Shown here in pieces: positions 10,657 to 33,259 of a DNA stretch of 64,000 nt (positions within the stretch are counted from its first letter, which is position 1; each line of letters begins with the position of its first letter). The DNA is taken from positions 744,001 through 808,000 of the forward strand of contig NZ_JAHVIT010000001.1 in the NCBI RefSeq assembly GCF_019801605.1. The letters are read 5' to 3'. Position numbers and translations under genes: made by a program. The notes beneath the pieces are model-generated. The model saw only the letters and a program-made list of their open reading frames with translations. It made no database searches and was not told the origin of the DNA. The stretch is from Maritimibacter alkaliphilus. Its GTDB lineage: Bacteria; Pseudomonadota; Alphaproteobacteria; Rhodobacterales; Rhodobacteraceae.

Positions 10657-11877
10657 ATGTATGACGTCAACGCCATCCGCGCCGACTTCCCGATCCTGTC
10701 GCGGGAGGTGAACGGCGTGCCGCTGACCTATCTGGACAACGGCGCCTCGGCCCAGAAACCGCAGGTGGTGATCGACGCGATCACGCAGGCCTATTCCATG
10801 GAATACGCCAACGTGCACCGCGGCCTGCACTACCTTTCCAACCTCGCGACCGAGAAGTACGAGGCCGTGCGCGGCAAGATCGCGCGTTTCCTCAATGCCG
10901 CTTCCGAGGACGAGATCGTCATGAACTCGGGCACCACCGAGGGGATCAACATGATCTCCTACGGCTGGGCCGCGCCGCGCCTGAAGGAGGGGGACGAGAT
11001 CATCCTCTCCGTGATGGAGCACCACGCCAATATCGTGCCGTGGCATTTCCTGCGGGAACGCCAGGGCGTCGTGCTGAAGTGGATCGAACCCGAGGCCGAC
11101 GGCTCCCTCGACCCGCAGAAGGTGCTGGAGGCCATCGGGCCCCGGACCAGGCTGATCGCCGTGACCCAATGCTCCAACGTGCTCGGCACCATCGTCGACG
11201 TGAAGGCGATCTGCGCCGGGGCCCGCGCCGCCGGTGTGCCCGTCCTCGTGGACGGCTCGCAGGGCGCGGTGCACATGCCCGTCGACGTTCAGGACATCGG
11301 CTGCGATTTCTACGCCATCACCGGGCACAAGCTCTATGGCCCCTCCGGCTCCGGCGCGATCTACATCAAGGCCGAGCGGATGGAAGAGATGCGTCCCTTC
11401 CTCGGTGGCGGCGACATGATCAAGGAAGTCACCCGCGAGGGCATCTGCTATGCCGAGCCGCCGCTGAAGTTCGAGGCCGGGACGCCGGGCATCGTCCAGA
11501 TGATCGGCCTCGGTGTGGCGCTGGACTACATGACCGGTGTCGGCATGGAGGCGATCGCTGCCCACGAGGCCGACCTCGCGGCCTATGCCACAGAGAAGTT
11601 CAAGGGTCTGAACTGGATCAACATCCAGGGGCAGGCGCCGGGCAAGGCGGCGATCTTCTCGCTCACCCTCGACGGGGCGGCGCATCCGCATGATATCTCG
11701 ACGATCCTCGACAAGAAGGGCGTCGCGGTCCGGGCCGGGCACCATTGCGCCGGGCCGCTGATGGAGCATCTGGGGGTCACCGCGACCTGTCGCGCCTCCT
11801 TCGGGATGTACAACACCCGCGCCGAGGTCGACACGCTGATCGACGCGCTGGAACTGGCCCACGACCTCTTCGCCTGA
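10657..11877 (+). CDS. sufS: Cysteine desulfurase SufS (group II)
   Basis: A 406-residue PLP enzyme that removes sulfur from cysteine and loads it as persulfide. Landmarks are the N-terminal YLDNGASAQKP, His123 (EHHANIVPW), Asp199 (VDGSQGAVH), the PLP lysine 225 in TGHKLYGPSG, and the active-site Cys364 in RAGHHCAGPLM. The last is the short loop of group II enzymes, which normally depend on SufE or SufU. No sufE-like gene is in the window. It is the last gene of the suf operon as seen here, and a 13-bp hairpin follows at 11941-11970. Confidence 0.96.
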   Translation: MYDVNAIRADFPILSREVNGVPLTYLDNGASAQKPQVVIDAITQAYSMEYANVHRGLHYLSNLATEKYEAVRGKIARFLNAASEDEIVMNSGTTEGINMISYGWAAPRLKEGDEIILSVMEHHANIVPWHFLRERQGVVLKWIEPEADGSLDPQKVLEAIGPRTRLIAVTQCSNVLGTIVDVKAICAGARAAGVPVLVDGSQGAVHMPVDVQDIGCDFYAITGHKLYGPSGSGAIYIKAERMEEMRPFLGGGDMIKEVTREGICYAEPPLKFEAGTPGIVQMIGLGVALDYMTGVGMEAIAAHEADLAAYATEKFKGLNWINIQGQAPGKAAIFSLTLDGAAHPHDISTILDKKGVAVRAGHHCAGPLMEHLGVTATCRASFGMYNTRAEVDTLIDALELAHDLFA

Positions 11878-18776: not shown

Positions 18777-18995
18777 TTACGCGGCCTTGCCGTCTCCCAG
18801 CTCCTTGCGGGCGTCCTCCAGCAGTTGGATCGTCACGTCATAGCTCTTCAGCGACTTCGGGAAATGATCCCGCTGGTAGCGATAGAAGGCGATCCACTGG
18901 TCGATCTGGTCCAGCGGATAGGTGTTGCTCCAGCTGCCCAGGGTCAGGGTGAAGGTGCCGCCGGCGCGGTCGAGGGTGCAGAATCTGTCCGACAT
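18777..18995 (-). CDS. Small hypothetical protein at the end of the Wzy operon
   Basis: A 72-residue protein starting at ATG 18995, inside the 3' end of the Wzy-like gene and in another frame (52-bp overlap). It has normal amino-acid composition with several aromatic residues (GSWSNTYPLDQIDQWIAFYRY) and no signal or membrane segment. I do not recognise a domain. The overlap suggests coupled translation with the polymerase gene. The heptamer array begins 20 bp past its stop codon. Confidence 0.6.
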   Translation of the reverse strand: MSDRFCTLDRAGGTFTLTLGSWSNTYPLDQIDQWIAFYRYQRDHFPKSLKSYDVTIQLLEDARKELGDGKAA

Positions 18996-20365
18996 GGGGA
19001 CGTGATGGCCCGGGGACGAGGCGATGGCAAGGGCCCGGCCGCACCGGAGCGCGCGGCCCGCTGCCGGCGCTTGTCCCGCGCCTCCTCCTGCAGCTCCGCG
19101 CCGTGGATTCCCAGGATCATCAGCCCGGGCCAGAGCAGGTAGGCCTCGATCTCGATGTTCTCCCCGAAGGAGAGCAGAAGCAGCGTCATGACGATCGCCA
19201 GCGGCAGCCGTCCCCGTGGCCCGCGGGCCGCATCCCAGAGCGCCAGCCCGGTTTGCCACAGGATCGGCACGGCCCAGGCCAGAAGCCCCACGAGTCCCTT
19301 CACGAAGAGCAGCGCCCACCAGGTGTGATGGGTGCCGATGGGCATGTATTCCACGATGTGCGGCCCGGGCTGGACGGTGCCATGGCCGAACCAGACCGCC
19401 TCGTTCTCCCAGCGTTCGCGGGCGATCCGCTGCAGGGTTTCGCGCACGCGGGTGCTGTCGGCGCGGGCGCCCTTGAAGGCGCTCACCGCATCCTTCAGCG
19501 CCTGCAGCAGCGCGGTCCCCACCACGGCAAGCGAGGCCGTCGCCGCCGCCACCATCTGCCAGGCCCAGCCCTTGCAGACCAGCGGCAGCATCCGCGGCCC
19601 GAGGGTGCAGGCCACGAGGCCGATCAGCCCCATGCGGCTCTTTGACAGCAGGATCATCGCCACGCCCGCCGCGATGCCGATGCTGCGCCACCGCTGGTCC
19701 TTCTCCTCCAGCGCGAAACAGACCTGCACCACGCCGAGGAGCGCCGCGAAGGGCGACCAGGGCGCGTAGAACTGCCACCGCGGGGTCCAGCTGGCCGGGT
19801 CCCAGGTGAAGAGGAAGACGCTGAAATACTCCGGCCCCGGGCCGCCGATGGCCTTCAGGGGCGAGGTGAAGATCCGCTCCGGCAGGCCGATCTGCGGCGC
19901 GATGAAGAGCAGCGGCAGCAAGGCCAGCGTCCAGAGCCCGACGATGCACTGCCCGCGCACCAGCACCTCTCGCCGGATCGGCAGCACGGCCCCGGCGAAG
20001 GGGAAGAGCGCCAGCAGGGCCCAGCCCTTGGCCCAGCCGATCGAGGACTTGATCGTCTGTTTCGCCCCGAGGCCCCAGTCGAGATGTCCGACCCAGAGCG
20101 CCACCAGCATCACGGCCATGCCGCCGATCCACCCCCAGACCACCGGGGGCACGGGCCCCCGGGCGCGCAGCTCGGGCCGGATCGCGGGGCCGAGGTAGAG
20201 CACCAGCGCCGCAAGCCCTGCCAGCAGCCAGGCCAGCACCGGCCCCACCACATAGAGCGCGCCGAGGAAGTAGAACGGCCATGTCCAGCGCAGGGTCTTG
20301 TAGACCATCCGCTCGGCGAGGTTTGCGGGGGTGAGCGGGACGCGGAGCTTGGGACGACGTGGCAT
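18944..20365 (-). CDS. Wzy/O-antigen-ligase-like polysaccharide polymerase
   Basis: A 473-residue protein with about ten membrane helices between residues 28 and 410 and a large periplasmic loop before the last helices (about 285-350, containing WFGHGTVQPGPHIVEYMPIGTHHTWW). That loop is the arrangement of the Wzy_C/O-antigen ligase family, which polymerises or ligates lipid-linked repeat units at the periplasmic face. The C-terminal 45 residues are basic and low in complexity and overlap the small gene downstream. It lies on the same strand as the Wzz-like gene, but 373 bp separate them, so it may have its own promoter. Confidence 0.85.
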   Translation of the reverse strand: MPRRPKLRVPLTPANLAERMVYKTLRWTWPFYFLGALYVVGPVLAWLLAGLAALVLYLGPAIRPELRARGPVPPVVWGWIGGMAVMLVALWVGHLDWGLGAKQTIKSSIGWAKGWALLALFPFAGAVLPIRREVLVRGQCIVGLWTLALLPLLFIAPQIGLPERIFTSPLKAIGGPGPEYFSVFLFTWDPASWTPRWQFYAPWSPFAALLGVVQVCFALEEKDQRWRSIGIAAGVAMILLSKSRMGLIGLVACTLGPRMLPLVCKGWAWQMVAAATASLAVVGTALLQALKDAVSAFKGARADSTRVRETLQRIARERWENEAVWFGHGTVQPGPHIVEYMPIGTHHTWWALLFVKGLVGLLAWAVPILWQTGLALWDAARGPRGRLPLAIVMTLLLLSFGENIEIEAYLLWPGLMILGIHGAELQEEARDKRRQRAARSGAAGPLPSPRPRAITSPCRTDSAPSTAPAAPSP

Positions 20366-20738: not shown

Positions 20739-22301
20739 TCATTCCGCGGGCACCCCGGCGGGACCGGCCTCTTCCGCGGTGCCGCGTGGGCGGTCCTCGT
20801 CCCGGGGCGTCAGCAGCTTGTCGATCAGGGGGCGGCGCATCCAGCCAAGGAGGAAGCCAAGCGCCATGAAGAGGGTCGCCGCCACCCCCGCCGCCAGCGC
20901 CAGCTTGCGCCTTGGGCTGCTGGGGGTCTCGGGCAGGGAGGGGTTCTCGAGCACCTGCACCAGCGGATAGGAGGCGAAGAGATCGGCCTTGTTGGTCTGG
21001 GTCCGCGCCATGGCGGAGGCAAAGACCGCCTCGGCCACGGCGAAATCGCGCTGCAGGTCCTCCAGCCGGGCGGCGGGCTCGATCAGGGCCATCTGCCGGG
21101 CCCTGGCGGTCACGAGCCGGGCAGAGGTCTTGCCCAACTCCGCCTCGAGCCCAGCGCGTTCGGCTTCCAGCGTGACCAGATCGCTCAGCAGCGGCGCCCG
21201 GTTGCCCACGTGGGACATGTCGAGCGTCTTCAGCGCCGCGCGGGGCAGGCCGGTGATCAGCTCCGCCCGGGCCAGCGCGTCGGCCTCGGCCCTTGCATGG
21301 GCCGCGCGGGCGGCCTGCACCTCGGGGTGGTTGGTCCCGAAGGTGGCATTCTTGCGCGACAGCAGCGCGGCCTGGTCCGACATCTCGCGGGCCAGTGCGC
21401 CATAGGCGGTGTCTGCGTGCAGCTTCAGCGCGGCAGCCGCGAGGCGCGGGCTGGTGTCGAGGGCCTGCGTCAGGGCGGCCACGGCCTCGCTGCGATCCGC
21501 CAGCGTGGTGGCCATGTCGCCCGCCCGCCGGGCGAGGTCGTCGGTTTCGGCCACCAGGGCATCGAACTGCGTGGCAGAGATCAGCCCGGTCTCCCGCTGC
21601 AGGCGCGAGATCTCGTCGCGGGTGGCGAGGACGGATTGGCGGTAATCCCCGATGGCCTCCCCGGCGCCGCTCTCGCGCATCTGCAGCTCATCGGTGCGCA
21701 GGGCCTCGATCTCGTGGAAGAAGGCCGCCAGCAGCGCCTCGCCCCGGGCCTTGGCATCCTCGGGGGAGTTTCCGGTGATCGAGACATGGATCAGCCCGGT
21801 CTGGTCCACCAGCTCAATCCGGGGGCTCCCGAAGGCGCGCGGCTCCATCTCCAGCGTGCGGGCGGCGGCGCTGACGATCCGTTCGGCGGCCAGCAGGCGC
21901 TTGTAGGTCTCCGTCGGGCTGACCGAGGAATGCGCATAGGGCGAGGAGGCAAAGGAGGAGGCCTGCCCGATCCGGTCGAGGTTCACCGAGGCCGAGGCGC
22001 CGGACCCCGGCAGGATCAGCGAGAGCCCGGAAGTGTAGCGCAGCGGCGCGGTGGAGAGATAGGTCGAGATCGGCGTCCAGATGCAGACCGCCCCCACGGC
22101 GAAGAGCCCGAGGTAGCGCGGCAGCCGCCCCGCATCGGCCGGACGCCCGCCCCGCAGCAGCCGGGCGAAGGTGATCGTCCGCAGCGGGCTGCGGAACAGC
22201 ACCGGCAGTGGCAGGCGCACAAGGCGGCGCAGCGCCCCGCGCAGGATGCGGAGGAGAAGAGACAGGCAGCGGGTCAGCAGTCGAGTCAACAATCGGGGCA
22301 T
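20739..22301 (-). CDS. Wzz/GumC-like polysaccharide co-polymerase
   Basis: A 520-residue chain-length determinant protein. It has a basic N-terminal tail, a first membrane helix at about 64-82, a long periplasmic domain with coiled-coil character (about 190-420) and a second membrane helix at about 468-488 preceded by the proline-rich PSLPETPSSPRRKLAL, which is the family signature. The short C-terminal tail has no Walker motifs, so it lacks a fused BY-kinase. It works with Wzy, and with the Wza-like exporter encoded at 30553-31788, to set polymer length. A regulatory repeat lies 92 bp upstream of its start (22393-22410). Confidence 0.9.
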   Translation of the reverse strand: MPRLLTRLLTRCLSLLLRILRGALRRLVRLPLPVLFRSPLRTITFARLLRGGRPADAGRLPRYLGLFAVGAVCIWTPISTYLSTAPLRYTSGLSLILPGSGASASVNLDRIGQASSFASSPYAHSSVSPTETYKRLLAAERIVSAAARTLEMEPRAFGSPRIELVDQTGLIHVSITGNSPEDAKARGEALLAAFFHEIEALRTDELQMRESGAGEAIGDYRQSVLATRDEISRLQRETGLISATQFDALVAETDDLARRAGDMATTLADRSEAVAALTQALDTSPRLAAAALKLHADTAYGALAREMSDQAALLSRKNATFGTNHPEVQAARAAHARAEADALARAELITGLPRAALKTLDMSHVGNRAPLLSDLVTLEAERAGLEAELGKTSARLVTARARQMALIEPAARLEDLQRDFAVAEAVFASAMARTQTNKADLFASYPLVQVLENPSLPETPSSPRRKLALAAGVAATLFMALGFLLGWMRRPLIDKLLTPRDEDRPRGTAEEAGPAGVPAE

Positions 22302-22392
22302 GGGAGGTCTCCTTGGACCTCACCCATAGCGCGTCGTGCGATGGCCATGGGACACGCGGGCGGATCGCCTGCGGTGCCAGCGGGAGAGGGGG

Positions 22393-22410
22393 CCTACCCG
22401 GAGGGATAGG
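22393..22410. promoter_or_regulatory. EPS-cluster inverted repeat, site A
   Basis: CCTACCC-GGAG-GGATAGG, one mismatch from the perfect form CCTATCC-N4-GGATAGG found at 31876-31893. It lies 92 bp ahead of the Wzz-like start. With sites B, C and D it forms a four-member set confined to this gene cluster. Confidence 0.65.
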
Positions 22411-22473
22411 CGGGCCGGGCGCATCCCTCCGATTTGCGCCTTGCGTCGCGGAGGATGCGGGGCAGGCTCTCTC

Positions 22474-22599
22474 GGGAAGCGGGAAGCGGGAAGCGGGAAG
22501 CGGGAAGCGGGAAGCGGGAAGCGGGAAGCGGGAAGCGGGAAGCGGGAAGCGGGAAGCGGGAAGCGGGAAGCGGGAAGCGGGAAGCGGGAAGTGGGAAGT
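22474..22599. repeat. Heptanucleotide array, 16 x GGGAAGC + 2 x GGGAAGT
   Basis: Eighteen head-to-tail 7-mers. The first sixteen are identical GGGAAGC and the last two are GGGAAGT. The array begins 173 bp upstream of the Wzz-like start codon, in the region that should hold its promoter. Copy-number change would alter spacing between upstream DNA and the promoter by 7 bp per unit. Confidence 0.97.
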
Positions 22600-22789
22600 G
22601 GGCCGCCGCTGTTTGCTGAGGGGCATGGTCTCCCGGCGTGACTGGAGAGACGCGCACGGCACCGGTCCCGCGGCGCGAGGCGCTCAAGGCGACCGGCGTT
22701 GAGCGGAGACAGGGCTGGGCCGAGACAGGGCAGAGCGGAGACGGCAGAGAGCCGCGCCGCCCGGGATCGGTCCCCCGGTCAGTGTCGCT

Positions 22790-23401
22790 TCAGAACAGCC
22801 CCTGTTCCTTCGCGATCAGCGCGGCTTGCGTCCGGTTCGCGGCGCCGATCTTGCGGTAGAGCGTCTTCATGTGCAGCTTCACCGTCGGCTCGCGGATGTC
22901 GAGGTCGCGGGCGATCTCCTTGTTGGACTTGCCCTGGGTCAGCCCTTCCAGCACCTGCATCTCCCGGTGGGACAGCATCTCGGCCAGCGGGTGGCTCTCG
23001 GCCTCCTCGGTAGCGCGCATGAAGTCGAGGGGGGCATATTGCTCTCCCATGGCCATGAAGCGGATCGCGTTGACCAGCGACTTGGCCGAGAGCGTCTTGG
23101 GCAGGAAGCCCGCGGCCCCGGCGGCGAGGGCCTGCTCGGCCACCTCGCGGCTGGCGGTGCCCGAGATGATCGCAACCCGGTGATCGCCCGGCAGCGCCAT
23201 GACGCGTTCGAGCCCGTCGAGGCCGTTCATCCCCGGCATGGTGAAATCGAGCAGCACGAGATCGAAGGCATCCTCGGCGAGCAAGGCCACGGCCCCGGCA
23301 AGATCACCTGCGGTTGCGGTCTCGAGCCCGGCCTCGTTGCCGATGTAGAGCACCAGCGTATCGCGCAGCAGCTCGTGGTCGTCGGCGATCAGAATGCGCA
23401 T
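22790..23401 (-). CDS. LuxR/NarL-type response regulator
   Basis: A 203-residue two-domain regulator. The receiver (1-120) has Asp8/Asp9 (IADDHE), phospho-acceptor Asp52 (LLDFTMPGMNG) and Lys102 (FLPKTL). A C-terminal GerE/LuxR helix-turn-helix occupies about 140-200 (LSHREMQVLEGLTQGKSNKEIA, then EPTVKLHMKTLYRK). The start at 23401 is fixed by AGAGGAGA just upstream. It lies in the middle of the exopolysaccharide block. The hybrid kinase at 26264-28831 is the nearest candidate to signal to it, and the four CCTATCC-N4-GGATAGG-like sites are candidate targets. Confidence 0.93.
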   Translation of the reverse strand: MRILIADDHELLRDTLVLYIGNEAGLETATAGDLAGAVALLAEDAFDLVLLDFTMPGMNGLDGLERVMALPGDHRVAIISGTASREVAEQALAAGAAGFLPKTLSAKSLVNAIRFMAMGEQYAPLDFMRATEEAESHPLAEMLSHREMQVLEGLTQGKSNKEIARDLDIREPTVKLHMKTLYRKIGAANRTQAALIAKEQGLF

Positions 23402-23561
23402 CACGTCTCCTCTTGCGGGGCCACTTGTGGGCGTCGCCGCACGGCCCGCCCCTGCCTCCCGGGCCCCTGCCTGTTGAGACTGTCCTACCATTGCTCGATT
23501 TTGAAATGTCATCTTTTTTCCTCTTCGGCGGCGCACCGCATCCGGGGCTCAAACAGGCCCA

Positions 23562-23576
23562 TTAAGACATCATTAA
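23562..23576. promoter_or_regulatory. CtrA-type box TTAA-N7-TTAA
   Basis: TTAA (23562-23565), seven bases, TTAA (23573-23576): an exact match to the full CtrA recognition site of alphaproteobacteria, in an otherwise GC-rich region. It lies 161 bp from the response-regulator start and about 200 bp from the glycosyltransferase start. Binding is inferred from the match only. Confidence 0.65.
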
Positions 23577-23609
23577 GGTGTCAGAAAAAGGGCGCGGAGG
23601 GACGGGCTG

Positions 23610-23627
23610 TATACACCTTCGGATAGG
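23610..23627. promoter_or_regulatory. EPS-cluster inverted repeat, site B (half-site)
   Basis: TATACAC-CTTC-GGATAGG. The right half is perfect and the left half retains only TA and the last C. It lies 147 bp ahead of the fused glycosyltransferase start and is the weakest member of the set. Confidence 0.45.
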
Positions 23628-23774
23628 AGGCACGGTCCCGACGGGCGGGCGGCCCCTGCGCTGGGCGAGCGGCTGTCGCCTCCGGTGGGGCGGGCGATCC
23701 GGGCGGGCGCCGGGCCTCGCCGCCGGGGATGTTGAGCGGGGCGGGCGGGATCGGGCACCGAGGAGGTAGAAACG

Positions 23775-25211
23775 ATGCACCCCCTTCACCCAAAGGAGAC
23801 CGCCATGACCTACGCCGCCCACCGACCCGCCGACTTCCACGCCGCCCGTCCCGCCGCCGCACTGCCCGCGCCGGGCGCGGGTCTCGACCGGGTCCGCCTT
23901 TTCGGGCTCGATGTCGTCTCGGCCACGACCCCCGCCGTGATCGAGCAGTTGCTGGCGCCGGGACGGCGCAGCCGGGTGGCCTTCCTCAACGCCCATTGCG
24001 CCAATATCCTGTCGCGGGATGACGATTATGCCGATGCGATGGCCGGGGCCGACATGGTTCTGCCGGACGGGATCGGCGTGGAATTGGCCGCGAAGATGAC
24101 CGGCCAGCAGATCGCCGAGAACCTGAACGGCACCGATTTCACCCCCGCACTGCTGCGCACGGCCGCGGCCCGGGGGATGAGCGTCTACCTGCTGGGCGCG
24201 CGTCCGGGCGTGGCGCAGGCGGCGGCGGACCGGCTCTGCCTCGCGATCCCCGGCCTGCGGGTCGTGGGGGTGCGCGACGGCTATGACGGCATGGCCGACG
24301 AGGCCGCCACCGTCGCCGCCGTGAATGCCGCGCGTCCCGATATCCTGCTGGTCGCCGCCGGGGTACCGTTGCAGGACCTCTGGCTTGCCCGCAATGCTGC
24401 CCGGCTGGAGCCCCGCCTGACCCTGGGGGTGGGCGCGCTCTTCGACTTCCTCGCGGGGCGGGTGACCCGTGCACCCGCGGCAGTGCGCAGGGCGCGGATG
24501 GAATGGGTCTGGCGGCTGGCGATGGAGCCGAAGCGGATGGCCCGGCGCTATCTCCTGGGCAATGGGGTCTTCCTCGCCCGCGCCGCGGTGCAGGCGCTGC
24601 GCCAGACCCCGGCGCAGGCAGTGGTAACCCGGGCGATGGACCTCTGCCTTGCGGGCGGGGCGCTTGTGTTGCTGGCGCCTGCCGGGCTTCTGGTGGCCGC
24701 GGCGATCCGGGCCGAAAGCCGCGGGCCGGTCTTCTTCCGCCAGACCCGGGTGGGCCGGGACGGGCGGACCTTCACCATGTTCAAGTTCCGCTCGATGCAT
24801 GTCGACGCCGAGGCGCGCCGCGCGGCGCTGCTGGCGCAGTCGGACCGGGACGGGATCTGCTTCAAGGCGCGCAACGATCCGCGGGTGACGCGGGTGGGGC
24901 GCCTGCTGCGGCGATTCTCGATTGACGAGATGCCGCAGATCCTCAACGTCCTGCGCGGCGAGATGTCGGTAGTGGGCCCGCGCCCCGCGCTGCCTTCCGA
25001 GGTTGCCGCCTATCCTGCGCGGGCGCTTGGCCGGCTGGCGGCGAAGCCGGGGCTGACCGGGGTCTGGCAGGTCTCGGGCCGGGCGGAGATCGGCTTTGAC
25101 AAGATGATCGACATGGACCTGGCCTATGTCCGCGCCCGTGGGCCGCTTCTGAACCTGATCCTGATCGCGATGACTTTCCGCGCGATCCTCGGCGGGCGCG
25201 GGGCCTATTGA
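23775..25211 (+). CDS. Fused WecB/TagA/CpsF (GT26) and bacterial sugar-phosphate transferase
   Basis: A 478-residue protein joining two enzymes of lipid-linked sugar assembly. Residues about 40-235 are a GT26 domain: NAHCANILSRDDDYADAM, ADMVLPDGIGVELAA and GVGALFDFLAGRVTRAP. Residues about 285-478 are a WcaJ/ExoY-type phosphoglycosyl transferase: one hydrophobic helix, GPVFFRQTRVGRDGR, FTMFKFRSM, SIDEMPQILNVLRGEMSVVGPRP and GLTGVWQVSGR. It probably starts polymer synthesis on undecaprenyl phosphate and adds a second sugar. Two in-frame starts each have a good ribosome site: 23775 (AGGAGG) and 23805 (AAAGGAGA). Confidence 0.92.
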   Translation: MHPLHPKETAMTYAAHRPADFHAARPAAALPAPGAGLDRVRLFGLDVVSATTPAVIEQLLAPGRRSRVAFLNAHCANILSRDDDYADAMAGADMVLPDGIGVELAAKMTGQQIAENLNGTDFTPALLRTAAARGMSVYLLGARPGVAQAAADRLCLAIPGLRVVGVRDGYDGMADEAATVAAVNAARPDILLVAAGVPLQDLWLARNAARLEPRLTLGVGALFDFLAGRVTRAPAAVRRARMEWVWRLAMEPKRMARRYLLGNGVFLARAAVQALRQTPAQAVVTRAMDLCLAGGALVLLAPAGLLVAAAIRAESRGPVFFRQTRVGRDGRTFTMFKFRSMHVDAEARRAALLAQSDRDGICFKARNDPRVTRVGRLLRRFSIDEMPQILNVLRGEMSVVGPRPALPSEVAAYPARALGRLAAKPGLTGVWQVSGRAEIGFDKMIDMDLAYVRARGPLLNLILIAMTFRAILGGRGAY

Positions 25212-25699
25212 GCGCCGCAGACGCAGCGGAGAGCGGGCCGCCGCCCTCCGTGTCTCGGCCCCTGGGCGGCTGTCCGGAGAGCACGAGCCCGGCCGTGAGG
25301 CCGGGCCGCGCCGTCCCGTGCCCCGGGGCGGCGTTGCTGCGTTGCCCCATGAGGCTGCTGCCTCCACCGCGGGCTGACGGGGCGGGCTGATGGGGCGGTT
25401 GTCCCGTCCCCCGGCCATCTCCACGCGTCTCGACCTCGACCAGCGCCACGGTGGAGGCCGCTGCCCCGTCGCGGGCTGAGGGCACGCGCCGCCGCTTCCT
25501 GCGGCCCCCTTCACGCACCTCGACCCGCCCCACGGTGGCGAAAGCAGAGCTGCCCCCACCGCACAACACCCTTGATCCCGTCCCGCCTATCCGTTCGGAT
25601 ATATCCACTGCCCGGATGCTCTGGCGACCTGCGGCCCCAAGGATGGGATAACGGCTGCACACCACCGCTCACGCAAGGCATCCCCACGGAGGACATGAC
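25212..25699. other. Intergenic region upstream of SUOX-like gene
   Basis: 488 bp of GC-rich DNA with no convincing gene. Its only clear feature is EPS site C at 25586-25603. Short open frames here have arginine/proline-rich, non-coding composition. Confidence 0.6.
25586..25603. promoter_or_regulatory. EPS-cluster inverted repeat, site C
   Basis: CCTATCC-GTTC-GGATATA, with a perfect left half and five of seven bases in the right half. It lies 96 bp before the start of the SUOX-like gene, which is followed by the hybrid kinase. The spacing is close to that of sites A and D. Confidence 0.6.
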
Positions 25700-26212
25700 A
25701 TGATCGCCCGGACCCTCACGCAGATGGCCACGCTCGCCATCCTCGCCCTGCCGCAGACCCTTGCGGCCGAGACGCTGCCCGCCCCCACGGGCGAGGTGCT
25801 GCTGACCATCACCGGCGAGATCACGCAGACCAACGATGGGGATGCCGCCCGGTTCGACCGCGCCATGCTGGAGACGCTCGACCCGGTCACCTTCACCACC
25901 TCGACGATCTGGACCGAGGGCCCGCAGGAATTCACCGGCGTGCCGCTCAAGACGCTGATGGAGACCGTTGGCGCCGAGGCCGACAGCCTCGCCGCAACCG
26001 CCGTCAACGACTACGCCGTGAAGATCCCTGACAGCGACTGGATCGAGGGCGGCCCGATCGTGGCCTACCTGCAGAACGGTGCGCCCATGTCCCTGCGCGA
26101 GAAGGGGCCGCTCTGGGTGGTCTATCCCTTCGACGGCAACCCGGGGTTCCAGAACGAGGTGACCTATTCCCGCGCGATCTGGCAGCTCGACCGGATCGAG
26201 GTGGCCGACTGA
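25700..26212 (+). CDS. Periplasmic SUOX-fold protein lacking the molybdenum cysteine
   Basis: A 170-residue protein with a signal peptide (about 1-22, cleavage after TLA). The mature part resembles the oxidoreductase molybdopterin-binding (SUOX) domain: FTGVPLKTLMETVGA, LREKGPLWVVYPFD and a C-terminal RAIWQLDRIEV. The whole protein contains no cysteine, so it cannot hold molybdenum through the usual cysteine ligand. It is probably a binding or sensory protein rather than an enzyme. It stands 51 bp ahead of the hybrid histidine kinase, so delivering a signal to that kinase is a reasonable guess. Site C lies upstream. Confidence 0.75.
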   Translation: MIARTLTQMATLAILALPQTLAAETLPAPTGEVLLTITGEITQTNDGDAARFDRAMLETLDPVTFTTSTIWTEGPQEFTGVPLKTLMETVGAEADSLAATAVNDYAVKIPDSDWIEGGPIVAYLQNGAPMSLREKGPLWVVYPFDGNPGFQNEVTYSRAIWQLDRIEVAD

Positions 26213-26263
26213 TCCCGCCCTGCGCGATCCCGCGCAGGCTGAACCCTGAATGGCTGCCCCTGA

Positions 26264-28831
26264 ATGGTTGATCCCGTGATCCCGCCGACGCCCGAAGAGG
26301 CCCTTGCCGCGCGCCGCCGCCGGTCGCGGGCGCGCGCCGGGCTGGCCTTGGGCACGCTGGTGATCTGCGTTGCCCTCGTCATGGGAATGGCGCTCTTCGT
26401 CCTGCGCGAGATCGAGGCGCTCAGCAGTGCGAACTCCGACAACCTCCAGTGGAGCCTGTCCCAGACCGACGTCGAATTCCTGCGCTTCCGCCTCGCGGTG
26501 GAACACGCCCAGATGGAGCCCGAGGCGCTGGATCAGGTCCGGCGCCGCTTCGATATCTTCTACAGCCGCGTCACCTCGCTGGAGCGCGGTGATGTCTACC
26601 GCGCCCTGCGCGCGGACCCGGCCTATGTCGCGCCCCGGCAGCGCATCGCGGGCTTCCTCGACGACACGGTGCCGCTGATCGACGGGCCCGATGCCGCGCT
26701 GCAGGCGGCCCTGCCGGGCCTCGCAGAACGCGCCACGACGATCTCTGGCGAGGTGCGGGCCCTGTCACTGGCCGGGCTCTCGGCCTATGCAGAGCTGTCG
26801 GACGCCCGGCGCGAAGGGGTCATGCGCACGCTGATTGCGCTTGCCGCCGTGCTGGGGTGTCTCTTCGCGGGCCTCGTGCTGATTGCATGGGTGCTCTGGC
26901 GTCTGTCCCGGATTGCCGAGTTCCGCGCGCTGGAGCTGAGCCGCGCGGGCGAACGCACCCGCACCATCGTCGAAACCTCGCCCGAGGCCATCGTGGTGAG
27001 CGATGCCGCCGGCAATATCCGCGAATTCAACCCGCGTGCGCAGGCGATGTTCGGCTATTCCCGCGCGGCGGCCAGGCACCGCAATGCGATCAACCTGATC
27101 TTCCCCGGCGACGACGCCGCCCGGATGCGCACCGGGCTGCTGGCCTTCCTCGAAAGCGGCGGTGCGCCCGGCGAGGGGGCCAGCCACTTCGAAGCCACCG
27201 CCACCGATGCGGCGGGGCGCCGATTCCCGGCCGAGCTCTCCATCGCGCGGGCCGAGGCCGGGCCGCTCTACATCATCTACGTCCGCGACATCTCGCGCCG
27301 GAAACAGGCGGAGGAGGGGCTGACCGACGCCCGTGACCGCGCCCTCGCCGGGGAGCGTGCCAAGGCCGAGTTCCTCGCCGTCATGAGCCACGAGATGCGC
27401 ACGCCGCTCAACGGGATGCTGGGCACGATGCAGCTGCTGCGCGATCACAGCCTGACCGAACGGCAGAGCGATCTGCTCGACCGGATGGACAGTTCGGGGC
27501 ACCTGCTGCTGGGGCTGGTGAACGACGTGCTGGAGCTTTCCAAGTTCGAAGCCGGCAAGATGACCGCCGAGCGCAAGCCCTTCGACGTGGCCCGGCTGCT
27601 CGACGGGGTGATCGAGACGGCGGCGCCTCTGGCCTCTGCCGCGGGCAACAGCCTCGGCTGGTCCTGGGCGGGACCGGCGCGCGCGGTGGCCACGGGCGAT
27701 GCCCGGCGCCTGCGGCAGGTGCTCCTCAACCTCGTGGGCAACGCGGTGAAGTTCACCCGCGGGGGCTCTGTCGACGTGGAGGTCGAGGTGCTGAAGGGGG
27801 GCGAGATGCTGGAAGTTCGCGTCATCGACAGCGGCATCGGCATCGCGCCCGAGAACATCGAGCGGATCTTCCACGACTTCGAGACGCTGGACAGCTCCTA
27901 TGCCCGTCAGGCGGGCGGCACGGGCCTCGGCCTTGGCATCGCGCGGCGTTTGACCAAGCTCATGGGCGGCGAGATCGGGGTGGAAAGCGAACCGGGCGAA
28001 GGCTCGCTCTTCTGGTTGCGCATTCCCGTGGGGGCAGAGGCCACCCTGCCGGAGGCCGAGGCGGCAGAGCCCGCAGCCCCCGCCTTGCGGCCGCTGGACC
28101 TGCTGCTGGTGGAGGACAACGAGATCAACCGCTTCGTCGCGCGCCAGATGCTGGAGGCCGAGGGCCACGCCGTGACCGAGGCGGTGAACGGGCGTGCCGG
28201 CGTGGAATGGGCCGAGAGCCGCGCCTTTGACGCGATCCTCATGGATATCTCCATGCCGGTGATGGACGGGCCCGAGGCCGCGCGGCGCATCCGGGCCGGC
28301 CGCGGTGCCTCGGCCGACCGTCCGATCATCGCGGTGACGGCCCATGCGCTGCCGGAGGAGATCGCCTCGTTCCGGGCCGCGGGCATCGATTATTGCATCG
28401 CCAAGCCCATCGACCGGGCGGAACTGCTGCGCACGCTGGCCGCGGCGGTGGACGAGGGGGCGGTGCGCCCCACCGCGCCTGCCGCACCCCGGGCGCAGGG
28501 CCTGCTGGACCGGGCGCAGATCGGCACGCTCTGGGACGGGCTGCCCGAGGCGCGGCGCGACGAGATGCTGGCCCGCGTGGTGGCCGAGATCGACACCACC
28601 ATCGATGCCCTCGTCGTCACCGCGCCAGACGATCCGGCCCTGGCGGCCACGGTGCACCAATGCGCGGGCAATTGCGCGGCCTTCGGTCTGGGCGCGCTGC
28701 GCGCGGCCCTCGCCGCGATCGAGACCCGCGCGAAACAGGGCCAACCGGTGCAGCCGGAGGCGCTGACGGCGCTTGGCCCCCTCTGGGCGGAGACCCGCGC
28801 CGAGCTGGAGCACTGGCGCGCGGCCGCGTGA
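26264..28831 (+). CDS. Hybrid sensor histidine kinase (PAS-HisKA-HATPase-REC-HPt)
   Basis: An 855-residue membrane sensor. Helices at about 26-47 and 189-213 flank a periplasmic domain of about 140 residues. A PAS domain (about 230-345) is followed by HisKA with His376 (SHEMRTPLNG), HATPase_c with Asn493, the G1 box DSGIGI and the G2 box GTGLGLGI, a receiver with Glu617/Asp618 and phospho-acceptor Asp661, and a C-terminal HPt-like domain with His798. This is a complete internal phosphorelay that needs an external response regulator, for which the LuxR-type protein at 22790-23401 is the nearest candidate. The start has only a weak ribosome site and may be coupled to the preceding gene. Confidence 0.93.
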   Translation: MVDPVIPPTPEEALAARRRRSRARAGLALGTLVICVALVMGMALFVLREIEALSSANSDNLQWSLSQTDVEFLRFRLAVEHAQMEPEALDQVRRRFDIFYSRVTSLERGDVYRALRADPAYVAPRQRIAGFLDDTVPLIDGPDAALQAALPGLAERATTISGEVRALSLAGLSAYAELSDARREGVMRTLIALAAVLGCLFAGLVLIAWVLWRLSRIAEFRALELSRAGERTRTIVETSPEAIVVSDAAGNIREFNPRAQAMFGYSRAAARHRNAINLIFPGDDAARMRTGLLAFLESGGAPGEGASHFEATATDAAGRRFPAELSIARAEAGPLYIIYVRDISRRKQAEEGLTDARDRALAGERAKAEFLAVMSHEMRTPLNGMLGTMQLLRDHSLTERQSDLLDRMDSSGHLLLGLVNDVLELSKFEAGKMTAERKPFDVARLLDGVIETAAPLASAAGNSLGWSWAGPARAVATGDARRLRQVLLNLVGNAVKFTRGGSVDVEVEVLKGGEMLEVRVIDSGIGIAPENIERIFHDFETLDSSYARQAGGTGLGLGIARRLTKLMGGEIGVESEPGEGSLFWLRIPVGAEATLPEAEAAEPAAPALRPLDLLLVEDNEINRFVARQMLEAEGHAVTEAVNGRAGVEWAESRAFDAILMDISMPVMDGPEAARRIRAGRGASADRPIIAVTAHALPEEIASFRAAGIDYCIAKPIDRAELLRTLAAAVDEGAVRPTAPAAPRAQGLLDRAQIGTLWDGLPEARRDEMLARVVAEIDTTIDALVVTAPDDPALAATVHQCAGNCAAFGLGALRAALAAIETRAKQGQPVQPEALTALGPLWAETRAELEHWRAAA

Positions 28832-29067
28832 CGGACCTGTCGTCGGGGCGACCGCGGCCCGGACGAGGCATGGAGGGGGGCATCGGGCCCGCCGTCGCCC
28901 GCGTGAGCCGGTGAGCTCTGATGCAGGCCCCGGTCCCGTCCGATCGGCCCCGTGCAGGGCGCCGCGCAGGCCACCTCGGGGTCGTCCAGTCCACCGCCGC
29001 CGGATCCCGCTTGCACCTCGCCCGGGTTCCCCGTAAGCCGGGACCTTTCCGCAGAAGGGGGCATGGC

Positions 29068-30303
29068 ATGGACCGTCTGGCAATCGATTTTGGCACCTCC
29101 AACTCGGCCGTTGCGCTGCCCTACAATGGCGGCATCTACCGCATCCCGATCGAGCGCGGCGGCGACACGCTGCCGACCGCGGTCTTCTTCCCCGCGAGCG
29201 GCGGGATGCGCATCGGCACCGCCGCCGCAGAGGCGCTGATCGCGGGCGAGGAGGGGCGCTACATGCGTGCGCTGAAAAGCGTGCTCGGCCTGCCGCTGCT
29301 GCATGAAAAGCGCCTGATCGGCGGGCAGCGGCGCACGCTGGCCGAGGTGATCACCGCCTTCCTCGCCGAACTGCGCACCCGCTCCGAGGCCGCCACCGGG
29401 CTGACCTTCCGCCGCGCGCTCTCGGGCCGTCCGGTGCATTTCCATTCCAACGACCCCGAGAAGGACGCGCAGGCGGAGGCCGACCTGAGGGCCTGCTACC
29501 TCGCCGCCGGGTTCGAGGAGGTCGACTTCCTGCCCGAACCCGAGGCCGCCGTGCTGGCCAGCCACGCCCTTGCGGGCGGCGCGCGGCTCGGCCTGATCGT
29601 CGACATCGGCGGCGGGACCTCGGACTTCACCGTCTTCCGCACCTCCGCCGACCAGCCCGAGATCATCGCCAGCCACGGTATCCGCCTCGGCGGAACAGAT
29701 TTCGACCAGTCTGTCTCGCTCGCCCATGCCATGCCGCTGCTCGGCCTCGGCTCGGAACTGCGGCGCGAGATGGGCAGCGGCCTGCTGCCTGTGCCCCGCG
29801 CGCCCTACGTCGACCTTGCCACATGGGCCAAGATCCCCTTCGTCTACACCCCCGAGACCCGGCGTCTGGCCAAGGACATGCTGCGCCTCGCCGTGGAGCC
29901 CGAGAAGATCGAGCGCTTCCGCGACGTGGTGGAGGAGGAACTGGGCCACGGCCTCGCCTTCGCGGTGGAGAAGGGCAAGATCGCGGCCAACGGGCCCGAG
30001 GGCACGGGCGAGATCCGCATGGGCGAAATCGAGAAGGGCCTTGCCGCGCCGGTGACGGTGGCGGGGCTCGACGCCGCCATGGCGCCCCATGGCGCCGCCC
30101 TGAGCGAGGCGATGGTCGAGACGCTGGCCCGGGCGGGTGTGCGCGCGGAGGAGGTGCAGGATATCATCCTCGTCGGTGGCTCCAGCCTCATGGGGTTCGT
30201 TGCGCGCGAGGCCCGCGCCCTGATGCCGGGCGCGGAGGTGCGCAGCGCCGAGGCCTTCACGGCGGTGGTGGACGGTCTGGCCCTCGCGGTCGGGCGGGGC
30301 TGA
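29068..30303 (+). CDS. Hsp70-family (YegD-like) ATPase
   Basis: A 411-residue actin/Hsp70-fold protein. It has the phosphate-1 motif DFGTSNSAVALP at 7-18, the second phosphate loop VDIGGGTSDFTVF and the adenosine motif ILVGGSSLMGFV near the end. It stops after the nucleotide-binding domain and lacks the DnaK substrate-binding domain, as YegD does. Start 29068 follows AGAAGGGGG; the open frame further upstream has no coding character. Its position between the EPS sensor kinase and the exporter gene suggests a link with that cluster, but the role is unknown. Confidence 0.88.
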   Translation: MDRLAIDFGTSNSAVALPYNGGIYRIPIERGGDTLPTAVFFPASGGMRIGTAAAEALIAGEEGRYMRALKSVLGLPLLHEKRLIGGQRRTLAEVITAFLAELRTRSEAATGLTFRRALSGRPVHFHSNDPEKDAQAEADLRACYLAAGFEEVDFLPEPEAAVLASHALAGGARLGLIVDIGGGTSDFTVFRTSADQPEIIASHGIRLGGTDFDQSVSLAHAMPLLGLGSELRREMGSGLLPVPRAPYVDLATWAKIPFVYTPETRRLAKDMLRLAVEPEKIERFRDVVEEELGHGLAFAVEKGKIAANGPEGTGEIRMGEIEKGLAAPVTVAGLDAAMAPHGAALSEAMVETLARAGVRAEEVQDIILVGGSSLMGFVAREARALMPGAEVRSAEAFTAVVDGLALAVGRG

Positions 30304-30498
30304 GGGGCGGGGGAGCCGCCCACGGCGGTCATGGGCTGTCCGATAGGGCGGCCTCCAACGGAATGAACCGCCCCGAGCGGCGCGGTCCGGTGTGCCCCGT
30401 TCCGATGCGGCCAGCCATGGGGCACCCGTCCTGAACCCGCCCGTCCCGAGGCCCGCTTCCGAAGCGGCTGATGCCGTATCCCCCTGACGCAAACGAAA

Positions 30499-30523
30499 CT
30501 GGCGACGGGAACCCCGCCGCCAG
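30499..30523. terminator. Bidirectional terminator between convergent genes
   Basis: The stem CTGGCG-A-CGGG pairs with CCCG-C-CGCCAG around a 3-base loop, with one mismatch. On the plus strand a TCTTTTATC stretch follows about 12 bp later. On the minus strand TTTCGTTTG follows. It sits between the Hsp70-like gene and the Wza-like gene. Confidence 0.6.
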
Positions 30524-30552
30524 CCTCTGCTCGCCTCTTTTATCTCACCCGC

Positions 30553-31788
30553 TCAGGGCAGCATCGCCACGGCGCCGATCACTCCCAGCACCCGGCCGAT
30601 CTCGGTCACGTTGGTGATGCCGCTGTCATAGCAGGCGATGCTGTCGCCCGGCAGCAGGTAGGGGTCGTAGTCGTCCCGGTCGGCGCGAGCGCGCATCTGC
30701 TCGATGGGCCGTTCGATCACCACCGAGACATCCGTCACCGGGTTGCGCGAGAAGAGCGCGGCAGAGCGGGCGGCACTGGAGACCCGCGCCCCGCCGACGC
30801 AGTTCGCATCTACCACCGCCTGCATGTAGCGGGTGCCGTAGGGCACCTCGCGCACGGTCTGGCCGATGGCCGAGATGGCGTTGCCGGTGGCGGGCTGGGT
30901 CAGGTTCGACAGGAAGAGCGAGACGCCGGGCGGGCTGATCGGGCCGGGCACCACGAGGTCATCCTGGAAGCAGCCACGGGAGGGCACGTGGATCTCGTCC
31001 CCGGTGATCAGCATGATGTCCTCGAACATCTCGCCCCGGATCGCGCCGCGCAGGTCGAGCGTGTAGTTCCGCCCCTCGCGGGTCAGCTTCACCGCCGAGA
31101 GATCCGCATCGGGCCGGATGCCGCCCGCGTTGCGCAGCGCGACCGAGAGGTTGCGCTGTTCCGTCGAGGCCCCGAAGGCGGCCTGCCGCCGGCTGTCCAC
31201 CTGGTCGCCCGAGACGCCGCCGATATCGATCGGATGGGGCTCGAACACTGCGCCGGAGACCGCGACGCGGGCCGGTGCGAAGTCGAGGATCAGGAGCGAG
31301 GTCACCGGCTCGCTCCCGTAGTGCCCGCCCGCGACGAGGGCGCGGCGGATGTCGCTGGCGACCGCCTCGGGGCGGCGACCGGCGGCGGCGATGGGGGGCA
31401 GGAAGGGCAGCTTCAGCGTGCCATCGCGCGAGACGACGTAATCGCCCGAGAAGGTCTCGTCCTGCGGCAGGCGGAAGTCGACGAGATCCCCGCGCGAGAG
31501 CAGTTCGCCGCGCAGCGCATAGGCGTCGCCGTCCAGTTTGCCGCCGCCGGTGTACGCGGCCCCGCCGATGGGCGGGCGGCACTTGGCGGCGTTCATGTCC
31601 GGCGCGCGCAGGAAGCTCACGGCATTCCGGCTGACTTCGAACTCCCGGTACTGGGCCTGGTAGCCGTCGCCCTGTGCGACGGGTTCGATGTTGCGCGCCT
31701 GGGGCGGTGCGGCGCAGGCGGCCAGCGCGCCGAGCGCGATCAGGGCGAGACCCTTCACGGGGGCCTTTCCGATGGTCTTGCGGGGCAT
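30553..31788 (-). CDS. Wza-like outer-membrane polysaccharide export lipoprotein
   Basis: A 411-residue OPX protein. The lipoprotein signal ends in LAAC with Cys25 as the lipidated residue. A Poly_export domain follows (LLSRGDLVDFRLPQDETFSGDYVVSRDGTLKLP), then two SLBB-like regions (VAVSGAVFEPHPI, and later DIMLITGDEIHVP) and a C-terminal PGDSIACYDS. It would form the outer-membrane exit channel for the polymer. The start at 31788 is set by AGGAGG 5 bp upstream. It is divergent from the flippase operon, and the perfect EPS operator (site D) lies between them. Confidence 0.92.
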   Translation of the reverse strand: MPRKTIGKAPVKGLALIALGALAACAAPPQARNIEPVAQGDGYQAQYREFEVSRNAVSFLRAPDMNAAKCRPPIGGAAYTGGGKLDGDAYALRGELLSRGDLVDFRLPQDETFSGDYVVSRDGTLKLPFLPPIAAAGRRPEAVASDIRRALVAGGHYGSEPVTSLLILDFAPARVAVSGAVFEPHPIDIGGVSGDQVDSRRQAAFGASTEQRNLSVALRNAGGIRPDADLSAVKLTREGRNYTLDLRGAIRGEMFEDIMLITGDEIHVPSRGCFQDDLVVPGPISPPGVSLFLSNLTQPATGNAISAIGQTVREVPYGTRYMQAVVDANCVGGARVSSAARSAALFSRNPVTDVSVVIERPIEQMRARADRDDYDPYLLPGDSIACYDSGITNVTEIGRVLGVIGAVAMLP

Positions 31789-31875
31789 GGCTGCCTCCTC
31801 TGATGGGCGTGAATATCTGTGCCCTGGATACCGCGCGGCGCCCTCAGCCGTCCAACGCGCGGGCGGATCGCACTG

Positions 31876-31893
31876 CCTATCCAAGGGGATAGG
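31876..31893. promoter_or_regulatory. EPS-cluster inverted repeat, site D (perfect)
   Basis: CCTATCC-AAGG-GGATAGG, a perfect 7-bp inverted repeat with a 4-bp spacer, midway between the divergent exporter gene (88 bp) and flippase operon (128 bp). It is the reference copy of the four-member set and could control both units. Confidence 0.75.
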
Positions 31894-32020
31894 GTGCTGA
31901 CCTTTGGGGCGTGTCTCCTCGCCGCCCGCGCGGAAGCGGGACGGGCGGGGCGCTGTTAGACCTGTCTCAGCGCCCATACCCACCCCCCACACGGTGGGCG
32001 CCGCAAAGGAGCCGACTGCC

Positions 32021-33259
32021 ATGATCACCGACCGCTGCACGGGACATTTCGCCCGTCACCTTCTCGCCTACTGCCTGTCCGAAGTGGCAGCCAAGGCGTC
32101 GCGGCTGCTGGTGGTCGTGGCAGTCGCCCGAACGCTGGACGCGGGCGCCATCGGGATCGCCGCCGCCGCCATGGCCGCCGCCGATATCCTCAAGGCCCTG
32201 ACCGAGACCGGGGTGAATCAGCGCATCATCGCCGCCCCGCGGGGCGAACTGGAGGCCACCTGCCGCACCGCGCGGCGGATCTTCGACGGCTGGTGCCTCG
32301 GGCTCTTCGGGCTTCAGATGGTCCTCGGCGCCGCGCTCTGGCTGGCCGGGGGCGAGGCGCTGCTCTTTGCCCTGATCGCGATCCTCGCGGGGGAATACCT
32401 CTTCATGCCGCGCGGGCTGGTGCAATGTGCGCTCGCCATGCGGGCGGGCAAGATGCGCCAGACCGCGGCCATTGCCGCCGGTCAGGTGGTGGGGGCGAAT
32501 ATCGCCACCGCCGTGCTGGTGCTGGTGCTGCCCGGGCCGCTGGCGCTGGTGCTGCCGCGGCTGCTGGCCGCGCCGATCTGGCTGATCGCCATGCGCCGCC
32601 TCCACCCCTGGCGCCCGGACCGCAGTGTCGCGCCCGCGCCGCTGGCGCCCTTCGCCCGCTACGGCTGGGCCGTGCTGGGGGTTGAACTGGTCAAGGCGCT
32701 GCGGCTGCAGGCGGACAAGCTGGTCGTCGGCCTGCTCATGGGCCCCGAGGTGCTGGGGCTCTACTTCATGGCCTTCAACGCGGGCCTCGGCCTTGCGAAT
32801 TCCTTCTCCCAGGCGCTCTCCGTCGCGCTCTTCCCCTCGCTCTGCGCCGCCGCGGACCGCGGGCTGGAGCTGCGCCGCGCCCTGATGCTCTCGGTCGGGA
32901 TCATCGCCCCGGTGGTCGTGCTGCAGGCCTTTGCCGCGCCGCTCTACGTGCCCGTGCTCTTCGGGGACCAGTGGGCCGGGCTGGCCAAGGTGGTCTCGAT
33001 CCTCTGCCTTGCGGCGATCCCGGGCGTGATCTGGTCCGCCGTGGCGCAATACCTGCGCGCCGAGGGTCGCCCGCAGCGCGAATTCACCGTCACGCTGGCA
33101 ATGACCGCCGCGCTGATCGCCAATACCGCCCTCATGGCGCCGCACGGCCTGACCGCGCTCGCCTGGGGCTACCTCGCCGTCGCCGTCGTCACCCAGGCCG
33201 CAAGTGCGTTGCCCGTGCTGTTGGCGACCCTGCATTCCCCGCTGATCCGGAGGGCCTGA
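32021..33259 (+). CDS. Wzx-type polysaccharide flippase (MATE/MOP fold)
   Basis: A 412-residue protein with about twelve hydrophobic segments and the polysaccharide-transporter layout. The opening FARHLLAYCLSEVAAKASRLLVVVAVART corresponds to helix 1, and the central RLQADKLVVGLLMGPEVLGLYFMAFN is a family hallmark. It should turn lipid-linked repeat units to the periplasmic face for Wzy. The start at 32021 follows AAAGGAG 9 bp upstream. It leads an operon of four genes, with only one base between its stop and the next start. Confidence 0.9.
   Translation: MITDRCTGHFARHLLAYCLSEVAAKASRLLVVVAVARTLDAGAIGIAAAAMAAADILKALTETGVNQRIIAAPRGELEATCRTARRIFDGWCLGLFGLQMVLGAALWLAGGEALLFALIAILAGEYLFMPRGLVQCALAMRAGKMRQTAAIAAGQVVGANIATAVLVLVLPGPLALVLPRLLAAPIWLIAMRRLHPWRPDRSVAPAPLAPFARYGWAVLGVELVKALRLQADKLVVGLLMGPEVLGLYFMAFNAGLGLANSFSQALSVALFPSLCAAADRGLELRRALMLSVGIIAPVVVLQAFAAPLYVPVLFGDQWAGLAKVVSILCLAAIPGVIWSAVAQYLRAEGRPQREFTVTLAMTAALIANTALMAPHGLTALAWGYLAVAVVTQAASALPVLLATLHSPLIRRA

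Follow-up and report, generated by a model that had tools for sequence, protein, structure and literature searches.

The exopolysaccharide (EPS) cluster of Maritimibacter alkaliphilus (Rhodobacteraceae) carries ahead of its genes an 18-bp inverted repeat, CCTATCC-N4-GGATAGG, which can be proposed with good confidence as the operator of a LuxR-type response regulator that is encoded in the same cluster, receives its phosphate from a PruR–DTB (DcpA-TorS-BaeS) phosphorelay and controls the EPS genes together with the pruR–DTB operon. The cluster lies within 64,000 nucleotides of contig NZ_JAHVIT010000001.1 (positions 744,001 to 808,000), hereafter the window, whose numbering is used throughout (Table 1). 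In the proposed mechanism, the PruR-type protein, bound to a pterin in the periplasm, would control the periplasmic domain of the DTB hybrid kinase, which through its HisKA, REC and Hpt domains would hand phosphate to the regulator. A dimer of the phosphorylated regulator would occupy the palindrome, with more dimers following on degenerate half-sites placed at intervals of two helical turns (21 bp); the last dimer would adjoin the RNA polymerase at a fixed distance of about 41 bp from the -10 element. The targets, most likely activated, would be the genes for Wza, Wzx, Wzz and the regulator itself, and the pruR–DTB operon.

Operator sites in the window and in related EPS loci

A search of the window with up to three mismatches recovers the palindrome ahead of the Wza/Wzx, Wzz and pruR genes, with none, one and two mismatches, respectively. 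A fourth site, at 23610–23627, is a half-site as judged by reading, with a perfect right half and four mismatches in the left, and is hence missed at this threshold. All four had been placed correctly in a preliminary description made from the sequence alone, and the distances to the start codons given there are reproduced (92 bp for Wzz, 88 for Wza, 128 for Wzx and, by reading, 147 bp from 23610–23627 to the glycosyltransferase ATG), except that the one for the SUOX-like gene (pruR) is 97 and not 96 bp. The rest of the window holds only four matches, each with three mismatches (at 10790, 13966, 20954 and 41599). The resulting total of seven compares with 2.14 expected and was reached in 1 of 100 shuffles. 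The control throughout is the same pattern read backwards. In the whole genome (4.91 Mb), 14 palindromes with up to two mismatches are found against 6 for the control, so that the motif is not spread evenly over the genome, and three of the 14 fall in the 9.5-kb cluster stretch (binomial P 2.6e-6).

As evidence, conservation in relatives carries far more weight than the number of sites in a single window. A search of 149 family genomes for the fused WecG/sugar-transferase gene of the cluster gave matches in 27; 17 of these matches, the own genome and genome G082 included, cover most of the protein or sit in the same gene cluster. Twenty EPS loci were compared, namely the window, 16 stretches and the loci of Ruegeria atlantica, Thalassococcus profundi and Thioclava dalianensis. 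Loci L058–L061, which match the C-terminal half of the glycosyltransferase only and have no cluster, are excluded from this count; L058 and L059 carry one site each with up to two mismatches. Gene order is kept in most of the 20 loci, and 19 of them carry sites (up to two mismatches) ahead of the same genes, so that the motif is retained upstream of orthologous EPS genes and the shared operator does mark an EPS regulon, as had been suggested. All 60 sites lie near the start of a cluster gene, 57 of them near one of six: those for Wzz, the regulator, the glycosyltransferase, PruR, Wza and Wzx. The sole site-free locus (L056) lies at a contig end, and its genome, G054, has no relative of the regulator at 1e-35. 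No site with up to two mismatches and no regulator match were found in the distant EPS clusters of Larsenimonas (L067) and of a Maricaulis metagenome-assembled genome (L068). In two genomes (G006 and G113) the regulator and the kinase are encoded on other contigs than the EPS cluster, which retains its operators; the regulon had been called self-contained, and while its existence is borne out, its self-containment is not general. One record, titled Oceanobacillus sp. HTM 045 (L065/L054), contains this alphaproteobacterial EPS locus, falls with the family in the genome search and is probably mislabelled.

Proposed promoter architecture and sign of control

When the sites of the EPS loci are aligned on the palindrome, weaker half-sites appear at positions +21/22 and +42/43. 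A TA dinucleotide, taken to mark the -10 element, also peaks: at +62 to +64 for sites facing Wza (12/14), PruR (7/13) and the regulator (8/12), and at +83 for those facing Wzx (12/14) and Wzz (16/17), with a permutation P of at most 0.0084 for each peak. The Wzz, pruR, Wza and Wzx sites of the window itself are among those with a TA at the expected place (83, 64, 63 and 83, respectively, each ±1). Where one extra half-site is present, the -10 element is shifted by 21 bp, which keeps a distance of about 41 bp between the last half-site and the -10 TA. Inverted repeats of 18 bp and phased arrays upstream of the -35 element are usual for the NarL/FixJ/LuxR family, and the phased half-sites and the fixed -10 distance would be the layout of an activator that touches the polymerase.

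The site at 23610–23627 had been assigned to the fused glycosyltransferase. Towards this gene there is no TA peak (3/14, P 0.55), which leaves it unsupported as the glycosyltransferase promoter; in relatives, the +22 half-site and the TA peak of the equivalent site point to the regulator. Since the peak towards the glycosyltransferase is missing, the site between the two genes most likely serves the regulator gene.

The same regulator could also be a repressor, or an activator only in its unphosphorylated form, in which case the pterin signal would repress or derepress EPS synthesis. Repressor sites more often overlap the -10 element or the transcription start; here the sites precede the inferred -10 elements and the arrays end at a fixed distance from them, which fits activation. 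On the other side, the PruR pathway of Agrobacterium restricts polysaccharide and biofilm, according to the available excerpt of the review PMC13259868, and the net pterin effect may be negative in Maritimibacter as well. Such a mode of control is considered unlikely, and activation by the phosphorylated regulator is retained as the preferred mode of control.

The PruR–DTB pair

The SUOX-like protein of the cluster scores just above the Pfam cut-off for Oxidored_molyb (25.4 bits, cut-off 24). Its best PDB matches are pterin-binding proteins (7rkb, 4.2e-37; 7kos, 7.4e-35; 7kp2, 3.6e-23), sulfite oxidases reaching only 0.02. PruR proteins carry a Trp in place of the molybdenum-ligand Cys (PMC13259868, available excerpt); this Trp is kept in 40/40 aligned relatives, 37 of which have no Cys at all in the aligned part, as is the case for the window protein. 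The N-terminus of the window protein appears hydrophobic by eye and, judged from homology, the protein would bind a reduced pterin there, on the periplasmic side. The kinase gene follows on the same strand after a gap of 51 bp. The WX7E motif of the kinase reads W-SLSQTDV-E, its Trp column being conserved in 44/47 relatives and its Glu in 40/47 (with a further five Asp); membrane topology was assigned by eye. TorS is the best named model for this kinase (E 5e-110, below the equivalog cut-off). Because of these PDB matches, the Trp in place of Cys, and the WX7E motif combined with the kinase domains, the SUOX-like protein and the hybrid kinase are, by their sequence, a PruR–DTB pair, predicted to sense pterins.

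The response regulator as candidate operator-binding protein

The regulator has a Response_reg domain (83.2 bits) and a GerE domain (73.2 bits), and its phospho-acceptor Asp and its Lys are D/K in each of the 57 rows compared. NarL is its best NCBIfam model, all NCBIfam scores being far below the curated cut-offs, and its PDB matches are VraR and NarL.

When the 149 genomes, one per genus in this tally, are grouped by the E exponent of their best regulator match, sites with up to one mismatch follow the regulator. The 28 genomes with a relative at exponent -70 or lower hold 66 sites against 5 for the control, the 33 genomes at -50 to -69 hold 37 against 10, and the 5 genomes at -35 to -49 hold 2 against 0; the 83 genomes with no relative at 1e-35 are not enriched (18 against 21). 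Presence of the site is associated with a regulator at exponent -50 or lower with an odds ratio of 14 (Fisher P 1.5e-12), against 1.1 (P 0.83) for the control pattern.

The regulator had been described as an orphan, which does not hold: the cluster contains a PruR–DTB pair, and a pair of this kind usually neighbours the genes for its relatives elsewhere. Of 99 regulator matches, 14 are in EPS clusters, and from the 85 outside the 40 best-scoring were taken (three being skipped). A DTB-type kinase is nearby in 31 of these 40 loci, in 29 divergently, and PruR is also present in 26; the 31 comprise 24 with a divergent kinase and PruR, five in which a divergent kinase alone was detected, and two with both on the same strand. 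Given this frequent neighbourhood, the regulator is likely a partner of PruR–DTB systems in general, the EPS cluster being one target set. The 40 loci hold 29 sites with up to two mismatches against 2 for the control, and the relaxed form CTATNC-N4-GNATAG (up to one mismatch) occurs in 17 of 27 divergent intergenic regions. In the non-EPS loci a second half-site again lies towards pruR, with 13 TA of 17, a result matched in 0 of 5000 permutations (P < 0.0002). Outside the family, relatives of the regulator are distant, and a PruR match was found within the short flanks examined in 1 of 13 loci.

The recognition helix and the operator also vary together. C occupies position 6 of the half-site in 39/42 halves where the helix is EPT (23 loci, of which 21 have a site) and in 11/26 where it is EVT (22 loci, of which 13 have a site), a difference with a P of 7e-6 per half and 6e-4 per locus. 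The EPT rows fall into a single clade of the regulator tree, to which one EAT row also belongs.

It could be argued that another regulator binds the palindrome and that the LuxR-type protein is a linked passenger, as LuxR-type regulators are many in each genome (57 first-look candidates in the own genome). This is improbable, since the association persists when genomes with the full EPS glycosyltransferase are left out (odds ratio 10, Fisher P 1e-8), the site occurs in regulator–pruR intergenic regions far from EPS genes, EPS clusters keep their sites after relocation of the regulator, and half-site and helix change together, if in one event. The LuxR-type regulator of the cluster, which the preliminary description had pointed to, remains the best candidate binder in view of its co-occurrence with the site, the non-EPS loci and the paired change of helix and operator.

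DNA operator or RNA hairpin

The perfect 7-bp arms and 4-base loop of the site at 31876 would also suit an RNA hairpin that controls translation or termination from within a 5' leader. This reading is very improbable and was rejected: none of the 52 changed pairs in the 60 sites is compensated (40 broken, 12 G-U), where the limit of two mismatches would admit a single such pair in each site; a single site serves two divergent genes, and the inferred -10 elements are downstream of the palindrome. The absence of compensated changes indicates a DNA operator. Chance palindromes in G+C-rich DNA, for which the modest excess in the window leaves some room, are a negligible prospect and were discarded in view of the conservation at orthologous promoters and the 66 sites against 5.

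Several results weigh against the proposal that a PruR–DTB phosphorelay acts through this regulator on the operator as an activator. PruR–DTB is not found nearby in 9 of the 40 non-EPS regulator loci, and 10 of the 27 divergent intergenic regions have no site at up to one mismatch. In the non-EPS loci the array layout is not found towards the regulator (P 0.93), and the TA is at +63 in only 6/17. Within the EPS loci, the +22 half-site towards Wza is weak by itself (P 0.028), and the regulator-facing site of the window is degenerate. As the EPT rows are one clade, the joint change of helix and operator counts as one change rather than as independent proof, so that its P value overstates independence and the result is suggestive. 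A second PruR/regulator/DTB set in the own genome does not have the CCTATCC operator. Finally, binding, phosphotransfer, ligand and sign of control are predictions drawn from sequence.

The second set (locus L280, C1:1003000-1016000) consists of a PruR 49% identical to that of the window, a DTB kinase and a divergent regulator 47% identical. It is possibly an insulated paralogous system.

Further sites and neighbouring genes

Among the own-genome palindromes outside the cluster (up to two mismatches), no clear further regulon member was found when the neighbours of L003, L007, L011, L012 and L013 were inspected and the other six sites were checked only for a TA at the expected place. The sites of L003 (a mutM-like frame), L007 and L011 are inside long frames, and that of L013 is 148 bp from a small frame. 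The L012 site, CCTATCCGAAAGGATAAA (about 1501–1518 of L012), is called within a frame, the true start of which is probably internal and 135 bp beyond the site. It precedes by about 135 bp the likely start of what is by eye a winged-helix-type response regulator, next to a uvrB-like gene, and no TA is found at the expected places. Twenty regions around non-EPS sites of relatives, one of which (L258) held no site with up to one mismatch, have mixed neighbours, some plausible and others such that the site is inside a gene; the plausible ones, named by eye from translations, include a second PruR (L248), a mannose-1-phosphate guanylyltransferase-like protein (L255) and a glycosyltransferase-like protein (L256).

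Three other features of the window stand near the genes discussed. The 7-bp unit CGGGAAG is repeated 18.6 times, to all appearance perfectly, over 22473–22602, in the stretch that separates the Wzz operator from the regulator gene's 3' end; the unit is not a multiple of 3, and the length may vary. An HSP70-like gene (29062–30303) between the DTB kinase and Wza genes is unmatched in the other EPS loci compared, and an HSP70-like match is also present near regulator locus L228. A protein of 473 amino acids (18944–20365) with no Pfam or NCBIfam match is conserved beside Wzz in the majority of the compared EPS loci.

Table 1. Operators, inferred promoter elements and genes of the proposed regulon (window coordinates; aa, amino acids; + positions are counted from the operator start).
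Feature	Position	Strand	Remarks
Wzz-like chain-length protein, 520 aa, proposed target	20739..22301	-	GNVR and TIGR03007 (E 5e-14), both below cut-off
Inferred -10-like TATGGG, Wzz promoter	22323..22328	-	TA at +83
Operator, 1 mismatch, facing Wzz-like gene	22393..22410	-	Followed by weaker half-sites, such as GCGATCC at +43 to +49
LuxR/NarL-type response regulator, REC and GerE, 203 aa, proposed operator binder	22790..23401	-	
Inferred -10-like TAATGG, response-regulator promoter	23559..23564	-	TA at +64
Degenerate operator, one good half, facing response-regulator gene	23610..23627	-	CCCGTCC at +22 to +28, TA at +64
Fused WecG-type/bacterial sugar transferase, initiating glycosyltransferase, 478 aa	23775..25211	+	
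Operator, 2 mismatches, pruR–DTB operon	25586..25603	+	
Inferred -10-like TAACGG, pruR promoter	25649..25654	+	TA at +64
PruR-type periplasmic pterin-binding protein (by homology), 170 aa, SUOX-like	25700..26212	+	No Cys; Trp at the place of the molybdenum-ligand Cys
DTB-type hybrid histidine kinase, 855 aa	26264..28831	+	Periplasmic WX7E, PAS, HisKA, HATPase, REC, Hpt
Wza-like polysaccharide export protein, proposed target	30553..31788	-	
Inferred -10-like TATCCA, Wza promoter	31825..31830	-	TA at +64
Perfect operator between divergent Wza-like and Wzx-like genes, serving both	31876..31893	.	
Inferred -10-like TAGACC, Wzx promoter	31957..31962	+	TA at +82
Wzx-like flippase, first gene of divergent EPS unit	32021..33259	+	Polysacc_synt_3, E 1.2e-27

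Relation to known systems and implications

The regulator shares its REC and GerE architecture with other NarL/FixJ/LuxR-type regulators that have palindromic sites, such as NarL, GacA/UvrY and DevR; to our knowledge, the half-site CCTATCC has been assigned to no characterised member of this family. The operator had been called undescribed, and titles and abstract beginnings of the papers found by searches of open-licence PubMed Central (PMC) are consistent with this, since neither the operator nor an output regulator for DTB kinases is apparent in them. PruR–DTB pairs themselves are already known and are described as widespread in Proteobacteria (PMC13259868, available excerpt); their output regulator and operator were not found in the open-licence PMC papers covered by these searches.

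The pair of the window shares with the PruR–DTB systems of PMC13259868, as far as the excerpt describes them, a SUOX-like protein of about 170 amino acids without the molybdenum-ligand Cys and a WX7E hybrid kinase, for which TorS is the best model here. That excerpt gives no response regulator, operator or targets for DTB kinases; here all three are proposed, the regulator being a neighbouring LuxR-type protein and the targets EPS genes. The PruR–DcpA system of Agrobacterium tumefaciens, described in the same excerpt, likewise has a PruR input and a polysaccharide output; DcpA works via cyclic di-GMP, whereas the output in Maritimibacter would be transcription via a phosphorelay.

We lean towards regarding this regulator and its operator as the missing output arm of PruR–DTB, by which a periplasmic pterin sensor of the Rhodobacteraceae would control the sugar coat, with a phosphorelay and a dedicated operator as the link and an array of operator copies spaced by 21 bp setting the promoter start, and by which the operator would serve as a genome-wide read-out of the genes under each PruR–DTB system. 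If this is true, the cognate regulator, operator and targets of PruR–DTB systems would be readable straight from sequence, and the question of a steering role of pterins, extracellular or periplasmic, in the exopolysaccharide production of marine Rhodobacteraceae would become testable.

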